From assembly GCF_006228385.1 (NCBI RefSeq), contig NZ_CP039852.1, forward strand, positions 3,240,001 to 3,304,000: 64,000 nt of DNA, given 5' to 3'. The notes beneath the pieces are model-generated. The model ran no database searches and had not been told where the DNA came from. It worked only from the letters and a program-made list of their open reading frames with translations. This DNA is from Salinimonas iocasae. Lineage in GTDB: Bacteria; Pseudomonadota; Gammaproteobacteria; Enterobacterales; Alteromonadaceae. The position numbers and the translations under genes are program-made. Numbering within the stretch: position 1 is the first letter of the stretch; each line of letters opens with the position of its first letter. Of this stretch, positions 28,996 through 36,224 are shown piece after piece.

Positions 28996-30219
28996 TTGCT
29001 CGATACTTTTACACTTGTAGTCTGCACTACAATAATCAACGCGATGATGATTGTGACGCTCGTCGCGCTTTATCGCACGAGTCCGTCTGAAAAGTCTATT
29101 CTGGACTGGCTAGGCGGAATTTGCTGCTTTTTTGTTACCAATATTGCTGGCCTGACGCTCTCGGCAAACCTGTTAAATCACTGGCTTACGCCAGCAGTGG
29201 CTAATACCTTGTTTGTTGCAGGCAATGCCATGATATTCAGTGGTATTTACCGATATCTCCACGGTCAGCACAAATGGCCTCTGGTCTGCTCAGTTGCCGC
29301 TATTACGTTTCTGGTACACCTCTTTCCCTTTATGCATGAAAACATCGAAAGCCGGATATTGGTTACCTATCCGCTTATCATAGCAATTTGCTTATCGGCC
29401 GTTGTGATCTTATGTCGTCGTCAATGGCAGACCCGATTATTCGGGCTACTTCCTCTGACCATTGTGATGGGTGCTTTCACCGCTCAATTGGCCTTGCGCT
29501 TTTTCGCGCTGGTATTGGAAAACGTTGGTATTAACGTGTTCAGCCATAGCCTGATTATCAATACAGGGACGTTGGGAGTGATGCTTTACGTTATGGCATT
29601 AGCCATGAGTGTAGCCTACCTGGTGAACTGGGTTCGGGAACAAAGCCTGAAAAAAATCTCCCGTACAGACACACTCACCGGTTGGTTAAACCGGCGTGAT
29701 TTTACCTACCGTATGCCACAGCTGTTTTCAACAACCCGTCATCATCGCCAGCCTTTTGCCTGCATTGTTATGGATATCGATATGTTCAAACAGGTGAATG
29801 ACACATATGGTCATACGGTGGGTGACGAGGTGTTAATCCATGTCAGCCACCAGATGCGCTGTGTCACCCGTGATTGTGAGTATCATTACCGGCTGGGTGG
29901 CGAGGAGTTTGTTCTGCTGCTTCCCGACTGCGATGAAAAGCAGGCAATGACAGTCGCGGAGCGTGTGAGAAAAGCCGTTGAATCATCGCCCTACCTTCAC
30001 GAAGATAACACGCTTGACTGTTCAATCAGCCTTGGCGTAGCGGTTATTACGGCAAACGGTGAAGGCGAATGGGAGAGCTTACTTAAAGCGGCTGACAACG
30101 CGATGTATAAAGCCAAAGCATCTGGCAGAAATACCATCAGGCTCGATGTCCTCAGCCGTCCGCGACAACATGCAGCGAACGGCAGCTCCTATCAGGCTAG
30201 CAAGAACTTATCAGCCTGA
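28996..30219 (+). CDS. Membrane-bound GGDEF diguanylate cyclase
   Basis: A 407-residue protein with about six N-terminal membrane helices (residues 5-215) and a C-terminal cytoplasmic GGDEF domain (about 230-390) that makes cyclic di-GMP. The active signature RLGGEEF lies at residue 299-305, with TDTLTGWLNRRDF and MDIDMFKQVNDTYGH before it. The inhibitory site reads R-D-C-E instead of R-x-x-D. The membrane region resembles no named sensor that I recognise. AAAGGA lies six bases before a TTG start at 28996. Its 3' end overlaps the phytochrome gene tail to tail by 28 bp. Confidence 0.88.
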   Translation: MLDTFTLVVCTTIINAMMIVTLVALYRTSPSEKSILDWLGGICCFFVTNIAGLTLSANLLNHWLTPAVANTLFVAGNAMIFSGIYRYLHGQHKWPLVCSVAAITFLVHLFPFMHENIESRILVTYPLIIAICLSAVVILCRRQWQTRLFGLLPLTIVMGAFTAQLALRFFALVLENVGINVFSHSLIINTGTLGVMLYVMALAMSVAYLVNWVREQSLKKISRTDTLTGWLNRRDFTYRMPQLFSTTRHHRQPFACIVMDIDMFKQVNDTYGHTVGDEVLIHVSHQMRCVTRDCEYHYRLGGEEFVLLLPDCDEKQAMTVAERVRKAVESSPYLHEDNTLDCSISLGVAVITANGEGEWESLLKAADNAMYKAKASGRNTIRLDVLSRPRQHAANGSSYQASKNLSA

Positions 30220-31676
30220 CGCAGGATAACAGCACGTACCTTTTTGGCCAGAAGCTGGTTCTCCTTGGTCCATTCCCGACTTGCCTCACCGCGCACCTCT
30301 GTCCATTTTTTAAACGAAGAGCGCGGGCTGAGCATACCGGCAGAGTCGGTTTCCTGAACAGACTTATCCGGGTTGCCTGCCCACTCGGTGTATTGCGCTT
30401 CAGGTAAGCGAAATGCATAGCACCGTAATGTCTGGGTTTCAAAGTTAGGTTTTATTGCCAGGATCCCTCTGATAGCATCTTCGCTATACTCCTCACCGTA
30501 ATGTTTAAGCACATTTTGCGTCTGAAAAATATAATCTGACAAATCGTTCTGTACTTTACGGTCCAGCTTATTCAATAAACTGGTATCAATTTCGCGCCCT
30601 GCCTGATACCAGGTATCATTTAAATACAAAGCGGTGGAAGAGGCATCCAGTTCTTTAAGCAGTGTGTCAGCAAGGTACTGACAACTGTCTTCACTGGATT
30701 TTTCCTCCAGCTTTTGCACCATATCATCCACCTGCTTTTCAATGTCACTTAGCAGTGCCAGGCGTTGCCGCGAACGAAATGTATTGAACACGGTACAAAA
30801 ATGACGCACCAGTTTTTCAGCAGTATTGCGAGTCAGTAGATCCAGGAATAGCGGCTCGGGATGGTGGCAGGCAACGATGCCCCATAGCTTACCTGAGATA
30901 ATCAAAGGAATTGAAAATGACGCACCAACATCCATATTTCTCAGGTACTGAATATGCACAGTCGAAACGCTGCGTAAGTCCGACCAGGTCAAATCCGGAA
31001 TATCTTCCTGCTGCGACACAATATCAATTGGGGACTCATCCACGTTCGGAATAATGCGGGAGGGATTCTGAAAGTACATTCTGCGCGCGATAGCCGGAAT
31101 ATCTGATGCAGGAAATTTTAATCCCATGTAGCCGTTATCATCGTCGGAAGTGGCCTCTGAGACCACTTCGCCAACCCAGTCACTATCGAAGCGATAAAGC
31201 ATCAGGCGGTGAAACGGCAAAATGCTGTGCAGCGTTTTAAGCAACTGGTTGTAATAATCTTCAGCCTGCCAGCTTCCCGGCGCATCGGGGTAAAGCTCAG
31301 ACTCCAGTGCCTGATAAGAAGGCAGGTTCTCAGGGGGATTGTCTCTTTCTAGCTCAACCAGTATTGCACCTTCTGAGCGAATAAGACGGATGTGCAAAGC
31401 ACTATTAGCGACTGTATGATGATAGTGCAGGCTCCGTTCACCCGGCTGGTTATCCAGCGCCGAAAGCATCGACTCATCTAACCAGTCCAGACTATCAATA
31501 GATTCACCCAGCAGTGATTGCGCGTCCTGTGTAATAAACTCGCTGATATTATTACTTACATGAGTTATCGTCTGGCTTTCCTCATCAAAGATGATAAGTG
31601 CGCCGAAAGCCTGAATACGTCCTGACAGATGAAGCTTTTCTTTTTCGCAATTCGCTAGTAACTCTTCAACATCCAT
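30192..31676 (-). CDS. Bacteriophytochrome photosensory core (PAS-GAF-PHY) without output domain
   Basis: A 494-residue protein with the PAS-GAF-PHY layout of red/far-red photoreceptors. Cys10 in ANCEKEKLHLSG aligns with the biliverdin-binding Cys24 of Deinococcus BphP. The GAF domain has FPASDIPAIARRMY (Asp192 of the DIP motif), His241 in TVHIQYLRNMDVGASFS and His272 in GIVACHHPEP. The PHY tongue shows EWAGNPDK near residue 432 and PRSSF at 451-455. No histidine kinase, GGDEF or other effector follows; the protein ends soon after the PHY helix (LLAKKVRAVIL). It lies 18 bp downstream of the CheB-CheR-PAS-GGDEF-EAL gene, so it probably signals to that protein. No heme oxygenase gene is in the window. 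Confidence 0.85.
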   Translation of the reverse strand: MDVEELLANCEKEKLHLSGRIQAFGALIIFDEESQTITHVSNNISEFITQDAQSLLGESIDSLDWLDESMLSALDNQPGERSLHYHHTVANSALHIRLIRSEGAILVELERDNPPENLPSYQALESELYPDAPGSWQAEDYYNQLLKTLHSILPFHRLMLYRFDSDWVGEVVSEATSDDDNGYMGLKFPASDIPAIARRMYFQNPSRIIPNVDESPIDIVSQQEDIPDLTWSDLRSVSTVHIQYLRNMDVGASFSIPLIISGKLWGIVACHHPEPLFLDLLTRNTAEKLVRHFCTVFNTFRSRQRLALLSDIEKQVDDMVQKLEEKSSEDSCQYLADTLLKELDASSTALYLNDTWYQAGREIDTSLLNKLDRKVQNDLSDYIFQTQNVLKHYGEEYSEDAIRGILAIKPNFETQTLRCYAFRLPEAQYTEWAGNPDKSVQETDSAGMLSPRSSFKKWTEVRGEASREWTKENQLLAKKVRAVILRQADKFLLA

Positions 31677-31694
31677 CCGGTGCTCCTCTTTAAT

Positions 31695-34600
31695 TTATTC
31701 GGCAAGTGCGTTGCTGGGACGCGACGTTAACATGTCAGTTAACTGATTACTGCCTTTTGGCTTATAAAGATAATAACCCTGTACAATTTCACACGATTCT
31801 TCTTTAAGTACCGCCAGCTGCGCTTCCGTTTCTACGCCTTCGGCTACAACCTGCAGCCCCATCGCGCTGGCCATGCGAATAATTGCCAGCGCCACTGCAC
31901 GATCGTCGTCATTTTCAGCAATACCATTGATAAAGCTTTTATCAATCTTAACTTCCTGAATAGGTAACTGGCGCAGCTGTGATAACGAAGAGTGACCAAC
32001 ACCAAAATCATCGACACTCAACGTGATACCCAGCTCGACCAGCTTATTGAGCTCTGATACCAGAATATCCAGTCGCTCGGCCAGAGCGCTTTCGGTAATT
32101 TCGAACTTCAGCGTGTCAGGCTTGATGCTGTATTTGTCCATCAGCTTCTTTAACTGTTTAACAAAAGAAGAGTCTTTAAGCTGTTTGACCGATACATTAA
32201 CGGCGACTTTCGGTATAGAGACATTCTCTTTGCGCCACTGGCTCATTTGTTTGAAGACCAGCTCTATAGCGTGGATACCGACTTCTTCAATCAGACGGCC
32301 TTTTTCAGCCACCTCAATAAAGCGCAGTGCAGAGGTGTCCTTCAAGGCATCGCTATCACAGCGCAATAGTGCCTCAATTCCCACAATAGCACCTGACGCC
32401 ACCTCAACCTGAGGCTGAAAATCTATTGAGAACAAATCGTCTCGCAGTGCATCGCGCAGGGCTTTTTCTATATCTAGCTTATCGTCTGCTTCTTTTTTCA
32501 TTTCTTCAGTGAAGAACTGATACTGGTTACGCCCCTGCTCTTTAGCACGGTACATGGCAGTATCGGCATTTTTCAACAATGTGAAGTTTTCCTCGCCGTC
32601 TTCCGGGAAGACAGCAATGCCAATGCTGCTGGATGCAAAGAGGGTGTGTTCGTTAATTTCAAACGGTGCGTTGATGATATTGATAATACGGTTAGCTACC
32701 TCATCAATTTCATCCACGGATTCTGCCTGCAGAATCGCAACAAATTCATCACCGCCCATTCTCGCCAGCATATCGGTATCCCTGACACACTTTTGCAAGC
32801 GGCGCGTGACCTGCTTAAGCAGCAAATCACCAATGTTGTGGCCCAGACTGTCGTTAATCTTTTTAAAGTCATCTAAGTCGAAAAACAGCACCGCGCACAA
32901 TTGCTCCTGACGCCGCGCGTTACCTAACATCAGCTCAAGGCGCTCCATCAGCACATTGCGGTTTGGTAGTCGTGTGAGCTCATCATGCGTCGCTAAGAAC
33001 TCAATCTTACGCTGCACATTCTTTATTTCGTTTACATCGCTGTATGTCAGTACGTAATTAAGATGTTTGCCATCCGCGTCTTTCACCACGTTGATCGTCA
33101 GCCACAGACCGATTTTATTTCCCTGGCTATTGATGTTGTTAATCTCACCCTGCCAGTAGCTCTGCTCATCAAGGACTGTGCGGATCCCTTCAAAAAACGA
33201 CTCAGAATGCTCGTCTGATGCCAGGTCTCGGGGCGTTTTACCTATCAGATATTGCAGGTCAAAGCCTGTCAGCTCTGTGAACGCCTCGTTGGAGGTAATA
33301 ATTTTTTTCGATTCGTCGGTGACCAGAATTGCTTCACCGGTGCGGTCGAACAGCTTACCGGCCAGCTTCAACTGCTCGTTAGCATGTCTTGCGCGGGTAA
33401 TATCATTTGCCTGCGTACAGATGGATTTAACCGTACCGTCGCTGTCAAAAATCGGGAAGCGAACCGCATCCAGCACGCAGCGCCCCTGCTCATTTTCAAA
33501 CTCATCCACCGAGCGGACCGGTGATAGTGAGCGCATGGTATCCAGATCTTTTTCCCGCAAGCTGCGCGCGGTTTCTTTTTCAAAGATGTGGTTGTCTGTT
33601 TTGCCAATAACATCTTCGGCGCTTAAATTGAAAATCTCTTCAAACCGGGCATTCACAAACTCATAGCGCCCTGAGCTGTCTTTTAGCGCAATCACTGATA
33701 GTGAGTTGTTCATGATAGACAGTAGCTGGTCCTGATTTTTCTCAACATCCTCATGGGCTTTTACCAGTTCAGAGTTGTCGATAATTACCAGAATCGCGCC
33801 GGTGACCTTGTTTTTGGCATTCATCAGCGGCGTTATAAACAGGTTCAGTGTTTCACGCTCGCTGGGTTTGATGATGATATTCAGCTTGCCACCACTTTTC
33901 ATGGTGGACTTCAGCCTGCTATCAATATCAATAAAGTATTCGGGCAGGTTCAGCTGCGAAATTGGCTTTTTGTGCGTGCCGCTATTGAGATGGTATTTAC
34001 GATCAGCCGCATCATTGGTGCGACTCAGACGCAGATCTTCATCAAAGATAAACAGTGGGAAGTCCAGTGTGTCATACACACTTTCCAGCTCGCTATTAAT
34101 AGAAGATAGCTCGGCAGACTTGCGCATGCTTTCTTCATTAACACTGATCAGCTCTTCGTTGGTAGCCTGCAACTCCTCGTTCGTTGCCTCAAGCTCCTCG
34201 TTATTCGCCTGCAGCTCTTCGTTGGCCGCCTGCACTTCTTCATTGAGCGCCTGCATCTCTTCTGCAGATGCCGCCATCTCTTCAGTCAGTGTCTGAAGCT
34301 GTTCGCGTGCAGCGATAAGCTCGGCAACATCGGCATTTTCAGTATCGTAATTGCCATCGTTGGTAACGATAGAATCTTCATCCGCCTGACGAAAATTAAC
34401 GATATACAGATCAGAGTCTTCTTTTTCCAGCGGGATCACGGCAAGTCGCCAGTGCTCCTGATTTTTCTTTTCAACCTGACGCGGGCGGCTGATAGCGGTG
34501 TCCTCGTCACGCTTCACTTTGTTAAAAGCAGACAATAACTCTGCTGAGAACTCTGAAACAATCAACTTCGATAGATTCAGATCCGGAGAGCCCGACGGGA

Positions 34601-36224
34601 AATTAACAAATGGTTGTAAGTCGCCACGGGAATGCAAAATGGTAAATCGCGAATTAATCAAAATACTGGGGCCGAACTCCCGCACCAATGTCTCATTGAA
34701 CAGGCGTTCATAGCTATTTGATGTAGATTCCTTCACCCGGGTTGGGGTTACTACGCCCTTCAGCATTCTGGGCACTGCCGGACGTTTAGAGCCTTCGCTG
34801 ACTTTAAAAATACGGCTGCGTCTGTCTACCGCTACAAAGTATTCTTCTTTCAGGCCTATGGATTCTGACTTACCCAAAAACAGAATCCCGGCGTCCACCA
34901 GTGAATAACGAAACAGGGACAATACACGCTGCTGTAACTCGGTATTGAAGTAGATCATGACGTTTCTGAACGAAATCATGTCCAGATGTAAGAACGGCGG
35001 ATCGCGGGTAATATCCTGGCGCGAAAAAGTAATAACATCCCGCAGATTTTTCTTCGGCTGATAAGCATCATCTTCAAAGCGAAAATACTTTTCCACCAAT
35101 TCAGATTCCACACTGCTCACTGAGTGTGAGGAATAGCTGCCTTTGCGCGCGATGGTCAGTGCGTTTTCGTCAATGTCTGTACCGAAGACCTGTAAATTGA
35201 CATTTTTATCCTGCTTATTTATCTCTTCAAGAAACAGAATAGCAATAGAATACGCTTCCTCACCCGTGGCACAACCTGCCACCCAGACGCGGATGTTTTC
35301 ACCACGCTTTTTGCCCTCTACGGTATCGGCAATATAGCGCTGCACAGAGCTGAAGGCATCTTTGTCACGAAAGAAGTTTGTTACCGATATCAGTAGTTCT
35401 TTTGACAGCGCCTGCACTTCTTCAGGATCTTGTTTAAGCTGCTTCAGGTAAGCCTTCAGGTTATCTTTCTCGGTGGCGATAAGACGGCGGTTAACCCGAC
35501 GCAGCAGCGTAGACTGCTTATAAAAGCTGAAGTCGATTTTTGTAGTATCACGTACTACATCGTACATCTCGTTCATTAGCTTATTGCGGGCTTCCTCAGA
35601 ATTCGGAAAGAAGCTTTCAACAATATTGCTGGTAAAGGAGGCAATCTCCTGCCCCATATCTTCAGGCGTAAGTACACGATCCACATCTACAGCTTTGAGC
35701 GATGCGGTCGGCATGCCGTCATACTTTGCTGTTTCAGGACTTTGCACAATGGCGAAGCCACCTGCACTTTTGATATTTCTCAGGCCACGGGAACCATCAC
35801 TGCCGGTGCCCGACAATACAATCCCGATACTGTGATCGCCAAGCTCTTCAGCCAGTGATTCAAACAGAATGTTAACCGAAGGCTTAGGCGTCACATCTTC
35901 CGGCTTTTGCTCTAATTTCAGGTGCCCCTGACGCAAAACGATGTGATGTCCCGGCGGGCCCACATAAATGGTATTTTTCTTAACTTTGACGTCGTTGGTA
36001 ATTTCTTCAACGTCAAAGGAGGTCTCTCTTGCCAGAATATCCGACATCTGACTTTTATGACTGGGCGATAAATGCTGGGCGATGACCAGGCTGGCGTTTA
36101 CATCTTTCGGCAGATTAGAAACAAGACTGATCAGCGCTTCGATGCCACCAGCTGACGAACCAACGCCAACAATGAAGGGGCTATCTGCTGTATTACTTGT
36201 CTCAGATGACTCTTTTTTTGCCAT
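31695..36224 (-). CDS. CheB-CheR-coiled coil-PAS-GGDEF-EAL multidomain signalling protein
   Basis: A 1509-residue cytoplasmic protein. A CheB methylesterase-like domain (about 15-200) keeps the triad Ser24 (GSSAGG), His51 (AQHLSPSH) and Asp143 (GTGSDGSRG). A CheR methyltransferase-like domain (about 215-480) has VTNFFRDKDAF and the SAM loop VWVAGCATGEEAYSIA. A long coiled coil at about 635-715 repeats EEL-x4 heptads such as NEELQATNEEL. Three PAS-like regions lie at about 725-1080. A GGDEF domain (RMGGDEF at 1156) with an intact inhibitory site R-D-T-D precedes an EAL domain (EALLR at 1283, VDDFGVGHSS, VVAEGVET) that keeps its metal ligands, so both synthesis and breakdown of cyclic di-GMP are possible. 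The first gene of the phytochrome operon. Confidence 0.9.
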   Translation of the reverse strand: MAKKESSETSNTADSPFIVGVGSSAGGIEALISLVSNLPKDVNASLVIAQHLSPSHKSQMSDILARETSFDVEEITNDVKVKKNTIYVGPPGHHIVLRQGHLKLEQKPEDVTPKPSVNILFESLAEELGDHSIGIVLSGTGSDGSRGLRNIKSAGGFAIVQSPETAKYDGMPTASLKAVDVDRVLTPEDMGQEIASFTSNIVESFFPNSEEARNKLMNEMYDVVRDTTKIDFSFYKQSTLLRRVNRRLIATEKDNLKAYLKQLKQDPEEVQALSKELLISVTNFFRDKDAFSSVQRYIADTVEGKKRGENIRVWVAGCATGEEAYSIAILFLEEINKQDKNVNLQVFGTDIDENALTIARKGSYSSHSVSSVESELVEKYFRFEDDAYQPKKNLRDVITFSRQDITRDPPFLHLDMISFRNVMIYFNTELQQRVLSLFRYSLVDAGILFLGKSESIGLKEEYFVAVDRRSRIFKVSEGSKRPAVPRMLKGVVTPTRVKESTSNSYERLFNETLVREFGPSILINSRFTILHSRGDLQPFVNFPSGSPDLNLSKLIVSEFSAELLSAFNKVKRDEDTAISRPRQVEKKNQEHWRLAVIPLEKEDSDLYIVNFRQADEDSIVTNDGNYDTENADVAELIAAREQLQTLTEEMAASAEEMQALNEEVQAANEELQANNEELEATNEELQATNEELISVNEESMRKSAELSSINSELESVYDTLDFPLFIFDEDLRLSRTNDAADRKYHLNSGTHKKPISQLNLPEYFIDIDSRLKSTMKSGGKLNIIIKPSERETLNLFITPLMNAKNKVTGAILVIIDNSELVKAHEDVEKNQDQLLSIMNNSLSVIALKDSSGRYEFVNARFEEIFNLSAEDVIGKTDNHIFEKETARSLREKDLDTMRSLSPVRSVDEFENEQGRCVLDAVRFPIFDSDGTVKSICTQANDITRARHANEQLKLAGKLFDRTGEAILVTDESKKIITSNEAFTELTGFDLQYLIGKTPRDLASDEHSESFFEGIRTVLDEQSYWQGEINNINSQGNKIGLWLTINVVKDADGKHLNYVLTYSDVNEIKNVQRKIEFLATHDELTRLPNRNVLMERLELMLGNARRQEQLCAVLFFDLDDFKKINDSLGHNIGDLLLKQVTRRLQKCVRDTDMLARMGGDEFVAILQAESVDEIDEVANRIINIINAPFEINEHTLFASSSIGIAVFPEDGEENFTLLKNADTAMYRAKEQGRNQYQFFTEEMKKEADDKLDIEKALRDALRDDLFSIDFQPQVEVASGAIVGIEALLRCDSDALKDTSALRFIEVAEKGRLIEEVGIHAIELVFKQMSQWRKENVSIPKVAVNVSVKQLKDSSFVKQLKKLMDKYSIKPDTLKFEITESALAERLDILVSELNKLVELGITLSVDDFGVGHSSLSQLRQLPIQEVKIDKSFINGIAENDDDRAVALAIIRMASAMGLQVVAEGVETEAQLAVLKEESCEIVQGYYLYKPKGSNQLTDMLTSRPSNALAE

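Follow-up and report, generated by a model that had tools for sequence, protein, structure and literature searches.

How does a phytochrome signal when its chain ends with the photosensory module? The question is raised by a locus in a 64,000-nucleotide stretch of the Salinimonas iocasae genome (contig NZ_CP039852.1, positions 3,240,001 to 3,304,000; hereafter the window), where a bacteriophytochrome without output module is encoded directly after a large protein combining CheB, CheR, PAS, GGDEF and EAL domains. Phytochromes are usually described as passing their signal through a covalently attached output module, and an earlier note on this DNA had suggested that the two neighbours are partners. 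Our analysis leads us to the reading that the output-less phytochrome serves as a separable subunit that senses light for the enzyme of the preceding gene, and that it sets the level of cyclic di-GMP, to which we give a probability of about two in three.

The 494-amino-acid (aa) phytochrome has PAS_2, GAF and PHY domains in that order, each scoring above its Pfam cut-off, and the Pfam scan found no further domain beyond PHY. This bears out the earlier note, which had the photosensor end at this point, had named the domains of both proteins and had placed a CheB/CheR/GGDEF/EAL protein 18 bp upstream in the same direction, as the open reading frames (ORFs) and Pfam matches also show (Table 1). 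The chain stops 39 residues past the PRSSF motif of the tongue, and its score against the NCBIfam BphP equivalog is 195 versus a cut-off of 1040. The structure model (mean pLDDT 89) has the fold of a photosensory module and resembles the PAS-GAF-PHY crystal structures of Agp1, IsPadC, DrBphP and others, with a query TM-score of up to 0.87 among the 50 solved structures listed. Identity is 92% to the relative in S. profundi and 76% to that in S. chungwhensis.

The window phytochrome has the N-terminal cysteine for biliverdin attachment, the DIP motif, the histidines, tyrosines and arginines of the pocket and the PRxSF tongue, where the roles of the residues are assumed to be those in Cph1 and DrBphP. 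When 57 selected output-less relatives were aligned, 16 of the 19 pocket and tongue positions looked at were unchanged throughout (Cys10, Asp192-Ile193-Pro194, Tyr201, Arg207, Arg235, His241, Tyr244, Ser253, His271, Trp432, Gly434, Pro451, Ser454 and Phe455), and Tyr161 and Arg452 (the arginine of PRxSF) were each found in 56. Among the landmarks listed in the earlier note, Cys10, the DIP Asp192, His241, Trp432 and PRSSF are in place, but His272 is kept in just 45 of the 57 relatives versus all 57 for His271, and the pocket histidine is therefore His271. This residue lies 30 positions past His241, as in Cph1 and DrBphP. The distance from PRxSF to the end of the chain is 33 residues in 34/57 relatives, with a range of 32 to 45.

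Output-less phytochromes of this kind form a large group. A profile built from 12 members gave 250 matches, and among the 120 listed the first 64 were output-less (480–532 aa) and ranked above all fused phytochromes in the list, while a profile made from five members on the other side gave 809 matches, of which all 120 listed were output-less according to their Pfam strings (352–511 aa). The listed relatives include proteins from Pseudidiomarina, Idiomarina, Methylobacter, Dechloromonas, Azonexus, Rhodoferax and Magnetofaba, and several are recorded as, for example, 'light-regulated signal transduction histidine kinase' without having a kinase domain in their Pfam strings. When 80 output-less and 50 fused photosensory modules were placed in one tree (130 rows), all output-less ones fell on one side of a single branch (SH-aLRT 99). 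This was a quick tree with long-branch warnings among the fused rows, and it leaves out 36 of the 55 fused protein matches, two duplicate loci, two identical output-less proteins and the output-less copies of genomes G675, G815 and G303; as its output-less rows were chosen by profile search, it shows clustering and not an unbiased census. We read the group as a sizeable bacteriophytochrome subfamily that would signal in trans to a cyclic di-GMP enzyme of the CheB-CheR type. The subfamily and this pairing are apparently undescribed so far, and among the openly licensed papers that the searches listed, judged from titles and the beginnings of abstracts, none described an output-less phytochrome with a CheB-CheR partner.

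The earlier note had proposed a search of related genomes for conservation of the pair, and would have counted a failure to find it together as refuting; the outcome speaks for the pair. In a sample of 295 genomes from the window family, 49 had a phytochrome match and 11 an output-less one (frames of 490–519 aa), the frames of the others being at least 687 aa among the matches listed. Partner matches (E <= 1e-150 in this sample) were found in 15/295 genomes, covering nearly the whole partner in those 11 as well as in G046 and G121, and only part of it in G203 and G044. All 11 output-less phytochromes adjoin the partner, with the partner gene first and on the same strand, and the pair is also adjacent in S. 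profundi, which is counted beyond the totals given below. A class sample (369 genomes, E <= 1e-20, matches in 15) added three output-less members (G914, G751 and G815), each adjoining the partner and then a heme oxygenase-like gene, which in G751 scored 20.3 bits, below the cut-off of 23. Four more came from the family of G914 (151 genomes, E <= 1e-100), all adjoining the partner, with the heme oxygenase-like gene next in three (L114, L115 and L116); the contig of G1134, 8.2 kb long, showed none. The class of G303 (48 genomes, E <= 1e-90) gave G303 as the sole match, with the partner (in two ORFs), the phytochrome and the heme oxygenase-like gene on contig C10, whereas a second copy runs off the contig end and was left out of the pairing count. 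Finally, in G675 the partner is accompanied by a phytochrome split between two ORFs and by the heme oxygenase-like gene, but this genome was found through a partner search and its pairing is no independent test. Outside the window family the pair was thus adjacent in 9/9 assessable cases (G675 included), with the heme oxygenase-like gene next in 8/9, and overall in 20/20 assessable genomes plus S. profundi, for which reason chance adjacency was dropped as an explanation. Indirect support comes from 13 pairs of partner and phytochrome records that seem to share a source, two of which seem to correspond to G232 and G129, already counted.

One further candidate, the 454-aa protein of G342, was dropped as an output-less phytochrome because it has an incomplete PHY domain with a GGDEF ORF behind it. 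At locus L105 (7569-9577) a phytochrome with truncated PHY is followed some 50 bp later by a GGDEF ORF, and this is a broken or split gene.

Trees of the two proteins were compared for 22 pairs, 17 taken from loci and five from indirect record matching. Of 19 splits, 15 were common to both; support for the four unshared ones was 93, 90, 89 and 65 with the phytochrome and 99, 63, 49 and 29 with the partner, and the best-supported disagreement was the place of P0142, a pair known from indirect record matching only. Distances correlated at 0.96, a value reached in 0/2000 label permutations (shared ancestry not removed). In both trees four genomes of the window family (g26) are placed beside L115 and L116, which belong to family f245, and apart from Salinimonas, a member of their own family. 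This suggests that the two genes have moved jointly, as one unit. The partnership that the earlier note had put forward thus gains support from adjacency, from largely congruent trees, from the heme oxygenase-like third gene and from the conserved pocket.

This bears on one alternative, in which the two genes are unrelated and stay side by side because they are inherited as an operon, with no functional contact between them. Receiver-free homologues of the partner without an adjoining phytochrome (see below) would fit such hitch-hiking, as would the recovery of one of the 20 paired genomes, G675, through its partner. However, the same gene order is found in several families with differing flanks, and together with the third gene and the trees this makes hitch-hiking very improbable.

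Table 1. Features of the phytochrome and partner genes (positions within the window; residues numbered in each protein)
Feature	Position	Strand	Basis
Output-less bacteriophytochrome, PAS-GAF-PHY, 494 aa	30192..31676	(-)	ORF, Pfam, structure model
PAS_2 domain, residues 10-110; Cys10 codon 31647-31649	31347..31649	(-)	Pfam, 49.5 bits
GAF domain, residues 140-283; Asp192 31101-31103, His241 30954-30956, His271 30864-30866	30828..31259	(-)	Pfam, 41.4 bits
PHY domain, residues 319-486; tongue motif PRSSF at 30312-30326	30219..30722	(-)	Pfam, 69.4 bits
18-bp gap with GAGGAG, Shine-Dalgarno-like, before phytochrome ATG	31677..31694	(-)	Sequence
Partner protein, 1509 aa: CheB-CheR-PAS-like domain-long helix-three PAS domains-GGDEF-EAL	31695..36224	(-)	ORF, Pfam, model
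CheB methylesterase domain, residues 19-194, not preceded by a receiver domain; Ser24, His51 and Asp143 retained	35643..36170	(-)	Pfam, alignment
CheR methyltransferase (CheR_N and S-adenosylmethionine-binding part), residues 223-467	34824..35558	(-)	Pfam
Eight heptads [AST]xx[EQ][EQ]xx[AST], residues 638-694, within predicted 88-residue helix	34143..34313	(-)	Pattern scan, model
PAS domain, residues 841-946	33387..33704	(-)	Pfam
PAS domain, residues 964-1066	33027..33335	(-)	Pfam
GGDEF domain, residues 1078-1234, with intact GGDEF motif and RxxD I-site	32523..32993	(-)	Pfam, alignment
EAL domain, residues 1254-1489; 9/9 catalytic positions looked at kept in the window protein	31758..32465	(-)	Pfam, alignment

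Gaps between the two genes range from -41 to +47 bp across the 19 loci measured, at eight of which the genes overlap. A scan for promoters and terminators gave counts no higher than in shuffled sequences. The surroundings vary: parE lies directly upstream of the pair in the seven genomes of the window genus that have it. At the S. profundi locus (L006, 97-5222) its place is taken by a helicase-type protein of 1182 aa (AAA_11/AAA_12) and an ORF of 537 aa that matches nothing in Pfam, which gives the impression of an insertion. In the four g26 genomes the flanks are unlike those of the window genus and there is no parE directly upstream, yet the pair is still kept. On the other side, a convergent GGDEF gene (28996-30219, forward strand) overlaps the 3' end of the phytochrome gene by 28 bp. 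It was dropped as a candidate partner, because among the fetched Alteromonadaceae neighbourhoods a similar gene was found only at L006, L038 (the L007 locus) and L039, and not at L040-L047.

Most domains of the partner (CheB, CheR_N, CheR, GGDEF, EAL and most of the PAS matches) exceed their Pfam cut-offs, while the PAS-like domain behind CheR and the first of the three PAS domains (PAS1, residues ~724-816) are predicted from the structure model and from PAS_10 matches in relatives. The protein carries CheB and CheR with their catalytic residues in one chain, as expected for a CheB-CheR fusion, and has intact GGDEF, I-site and EAL catalytic residues, as in bifunctional GGDEF-EAL proteins, where the roles of the EAL residues are assumed to be those in RocR. 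Ten CheB, CheR, GGDEF and I-site positions are kept in all 12 partners aligned. These have at most 38 residues ahead of the CheB motif, and no receiver domain was found in the four paired partners scanned. In G815, G1134 and G303 the partner is broken into two or three ORFs, which are probably assembly errors.

With regard to the supply of chromophore, a profile was built from eight heme oxygenase-like genes, including the one in the S. iocasae genome, whose own match is by construction. Of 24 genomes it matched in 19, and these are precisely the ones that also gave a phytochrome match; the five negative genomes had been added for lacking one. In G129, G024, G187, G219 and G256 the match was in two pieces. 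All four g26 genomes have the gene at a distance of ~5-10 kb from the pair. In Methylomonas koyamae a 796-aa protein (P0237) combines PAS_2, GAF, PHY and PAS with a heme oxygenase domain in one chain, according to precomputed Pfam domains. Elsewhere in the S. iocasae genome, a full-length phytochrome with HWE kinase and receiver domains (L004, 3201-8820) adjoins a receiver-PAS-GGDEF-EAL gene and, in divergent orientation, a heme oxygenase-like gene. The third phytochrome of this genome (L005, 5573-8233) carries domains of the histidine kinase and receiver types.

From these comparisons we propose the following mechanism. Biliverdin would be made by a heme oxygenase, for which S. iocasae has a weakly matching candidate gene beside another phytochrome and other lineages have one in the same operon, and would attach through Cys10. 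Photoconversion between red and far-red states would refold the PHY tongue and alter docking of the phytochrome on the CheB-CheR-PAS-GGDEF-EAL protein, perhaps on its long helix and first two PAS domains, so that the signal would run by contact from sensor to enzyme. The change in docking would set the balance between GGDEF and EAL, and with it the sign of the output and the level of cyclic di-GMP. The receiver-less CheR and CheB may tune sensitivity by methylating and demethylating glutamates of some target.

The longer homologues in G046, G121 and on contig 15 of G303, which are not paired, carry an N-terminal receiver domain before CheB, and it would fit, although not strictly, that the phytochrome takes the place of a phosphorylation input. 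The likeness among paired partners, set against that to unpaired homologues, is clearest in PAS1 (30 versus 13-24%) and PAS2 (29 versus 13-15%), whereas CheB (50 versus 47-52%) and GGDEF (52 versus 44-51%) hardly differ and EAL stands at 41 versus 31-41%. Proteins with the order receiver-CheB-CheR-PAS-GGDEF-EAL (~1675 aa) without a phytochrome neighbour were also seen at L072, L074 and L075, and the Shewanella plasmid pSX1_LC6 (L079, 4992-9542), which is conjugative, has a CheB-CheR-GGDEF-EAL homologue between transposase genes and near a gene for a PAS-type chemoreceptor.

Several observations weigh against the reading of the phytochrome as a cyclic di-GMP-setting subunit. The whole case consists of sequence comparison and predicted structures. 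G295 has a receiver-free CheB-CheR-GGDEF-EAL protein with 42% identity and no output-less phytochrome at E <= 1e-90, and the receiver-free homologues of G394 and G591 have no phytochrome adjoining; the enzyme can therefore live without the phytochrome, and loss of the receiver is not strictly tied to its presence. The G295 protein, with 44% in PAS2, also breaks the PAS1/PAS2 pattern, and the relative similarity of these two domains, the one line of evidence used here, weakly supports the helix, PAS1 and PAS2 as a candidate docking region. EAL positions 1428 and 1462 are altered in two of the 12 partners (G149 and G129), which probably do not hydrolyse cyclic di-GMP, and the output can therefore not be phosphodiesterase activity everywhere. 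As for the chromophore, PF01126 found no heme oxygenase in the S. iocasae genome at E <= 0.001, and the heme oxygenase-like ORF beside its canonical phytochrome (G000:C1:2308220-2308798) scored 18.8 bits versus the Pfam cut-off of 23; since this ORF is a weak match, a missing source of biliverdin was dropped as an objection.

The same EAL changes would be welcome to a second interpretation, in which the light signal goes to CheB and CheR and controls methylation of chemoreceptors, with GGDEF and EAL secondary, so that the outcome is taxis and not a change in cyclic di-GMP. The CheB and CheR positions are kept in 12/12 and 25/25 aligned sequences, and the S. iocasae genome has 15 matches of the methyl-accepting chemotaxis protein (MCP) type. 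CheB and CheR have also been suggested, by analogy, to provide 'memory' in halobacterial phototaxis (PMC5812497). However, the GGDEF and I-site positions are equally invariant, no chemotaxis domain was found in the five flanking proteins scanned in the window, and CheB lacks here the receiver domain that normally regulates it. We regard control of chemoreceptors as unlikely.

It is also conceivable that the output-less phytochrome forms mixed dimers with full-length phytochromes, or is a sink for biliverdin, and that adjacency reflects co-expression only. This would agree with the two further phytochromes of the S. iocasae genome, but in G149, G129, G102, G269, G220 and G131 the output-less protein is the single phytochrome match, and adjacency in 20/20 genomes also speaks against this explanation; it is improbable, if less so than the hitch-hiking considered above. 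Least probable of all is that the phytochrome fold senses something other than red light (temperature, redox or another bilin). The name Salinimonas profundi, and only the name, hints at a dark habitat, but pocket and tongue are kept and heme oxygenase-like matches were found in all 19 phytochrome-bearing genomes tested.

Returning to the reading of the phytochrome as a subunit of its neighbour, we also considered what the CheB and CheR domains might act on. AlphaFold predicts a single 88-residue helix (residues 632-719) between the PAS-like domain and PAS1 of the partner, with a pLDDT by blocks of ten residues of 38-59 at its start and 72-86 elsewhere, in a model with a pTM of only 0.38. This helix holds eight successive heptads of [AST]xx[EQ][EQ]xx[AST], a pattern of MCP methylation sites, and runs of at least six heptads were found in 117/120 homologues. 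However, the pattern is near expectation in most of the 15 MCPs of the S. iocasae genome (at most three matches, longest run two) and therefore does not identify MCP sites, and a run of eight was reached in 60/2000 heptad-preserving shuffles of the helix; on these grounds the pattern was dropped as proof of self-methylation, which is speculation. In a wider and doubtful extension of the idea, CheB-CheR fusions would be a general self-adapting platform with interchangeable stand-alone sensors (phytochromes, short LOV or BLUF proteins), in which methylation and demethylation of the heptad glutamates of the 88-residue helix would make the protein report changes in light and not its level, and the only output of the phytochrome branch would be the protein encoded next door.

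A large group of phytochromes that keeps the same neighbour wherever checked makes it possible to test whether bacterial phytochromes can signal through contact with another protein and, if the reading is true, would provide a naturally two-part red-light switch for cyclic di-GMP. To our knowledge the role of CheB-CheR fusion proteins is largely unassigned, and the pairing offers them a concrete input. Photosensors acting in trans, and phytochrome signalling as such, are already known, and it is this family and its pairing that appear not to have been described.

With known CheB-CheR fusions ('two-component system CheB/CheR fusion protein') the partner has the order of CheB, CheR, glutamate-rich helix and PAS in common. 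Some of these end in a histidine kinase (L076 and L078) or start with a receiver (L072, L074 and L075), whereas GGDEF-EAL forms the C-terminal part of the phytochrome-adjoining proteins, and no receiver was found in the four scanned. Nine plasmid loci with CheB-CheR fusions were picked by hand and not at random, one without annotation and one (L078) chosen for its BLUF label, and in 3/9 a small sensor gene adjoins the fusion gene. In the Comamonadaceae plasmid CP099603.1 (L078, 4821-9480) a BLUF gene lies upstream of a CheB-CheR-PAS-histidine kinase-receiver gene, and in two Sagittula plasmids (L081, 3403-7393; L141, 1939-5929) a gene for a 178-aa PAS protein is directly upstream of the fusion gene, which is followed by a response regulator. 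The 178-aa protein of L081, the one Sagittula record translated, contains NCRFLQ, the LOV motif.

Among stand-alone photosensors, PapB is a blue-light flavin sensor of the BLUF type, unlike the window phytochrome, and PapA is an EAL enzyme not known to carry CheB or CheR; both are from Rhodopseudomonas palustris. PapB and PapA are reported to form a heteromeric complex, and a stand-alone photosensor thus acts in trans on a cyclic di-GMP enzyme, as proposed here (PMC8846402). Similarly, genes for stand-alone photoactive yellow proteins share operons with GGDEF/EAL genes, photosensor and cyclic di-GMP enzyme being separate genes of one operon as in the window, but their chromophore and fold are unlike those of phytochromes and CheB/CheR does not occur in its main text (PMC12826048). 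Canonical bacteriophytochromes (PAS-GAF-PHY with a histidine kinase) have the three domains, the biliverdin pocket and the tongue in common with the window protein, which differs in having no output module and in its place on a separate side of the tree. A phytochrome module that controls, or is expected to control, GGDEF/EAL as proposed here is found in BphG, IsPadC and the 1444-aa PAS_2-GAF-PHY-PAS-GGDEF-EAL protein of L106 (7134-11468), all of them single chains. No fusion of PHY with CheB-CheR was seen among the 120 Pfam strings listed, in a search that was not exhaustive and in which not all long frames were domain-scanned. Unlike in BphG and IsPadC, the window phytochrome and GGDEF/EAL thus reside on two polypeptides, and the enzyme has CheB and CheR in addition.

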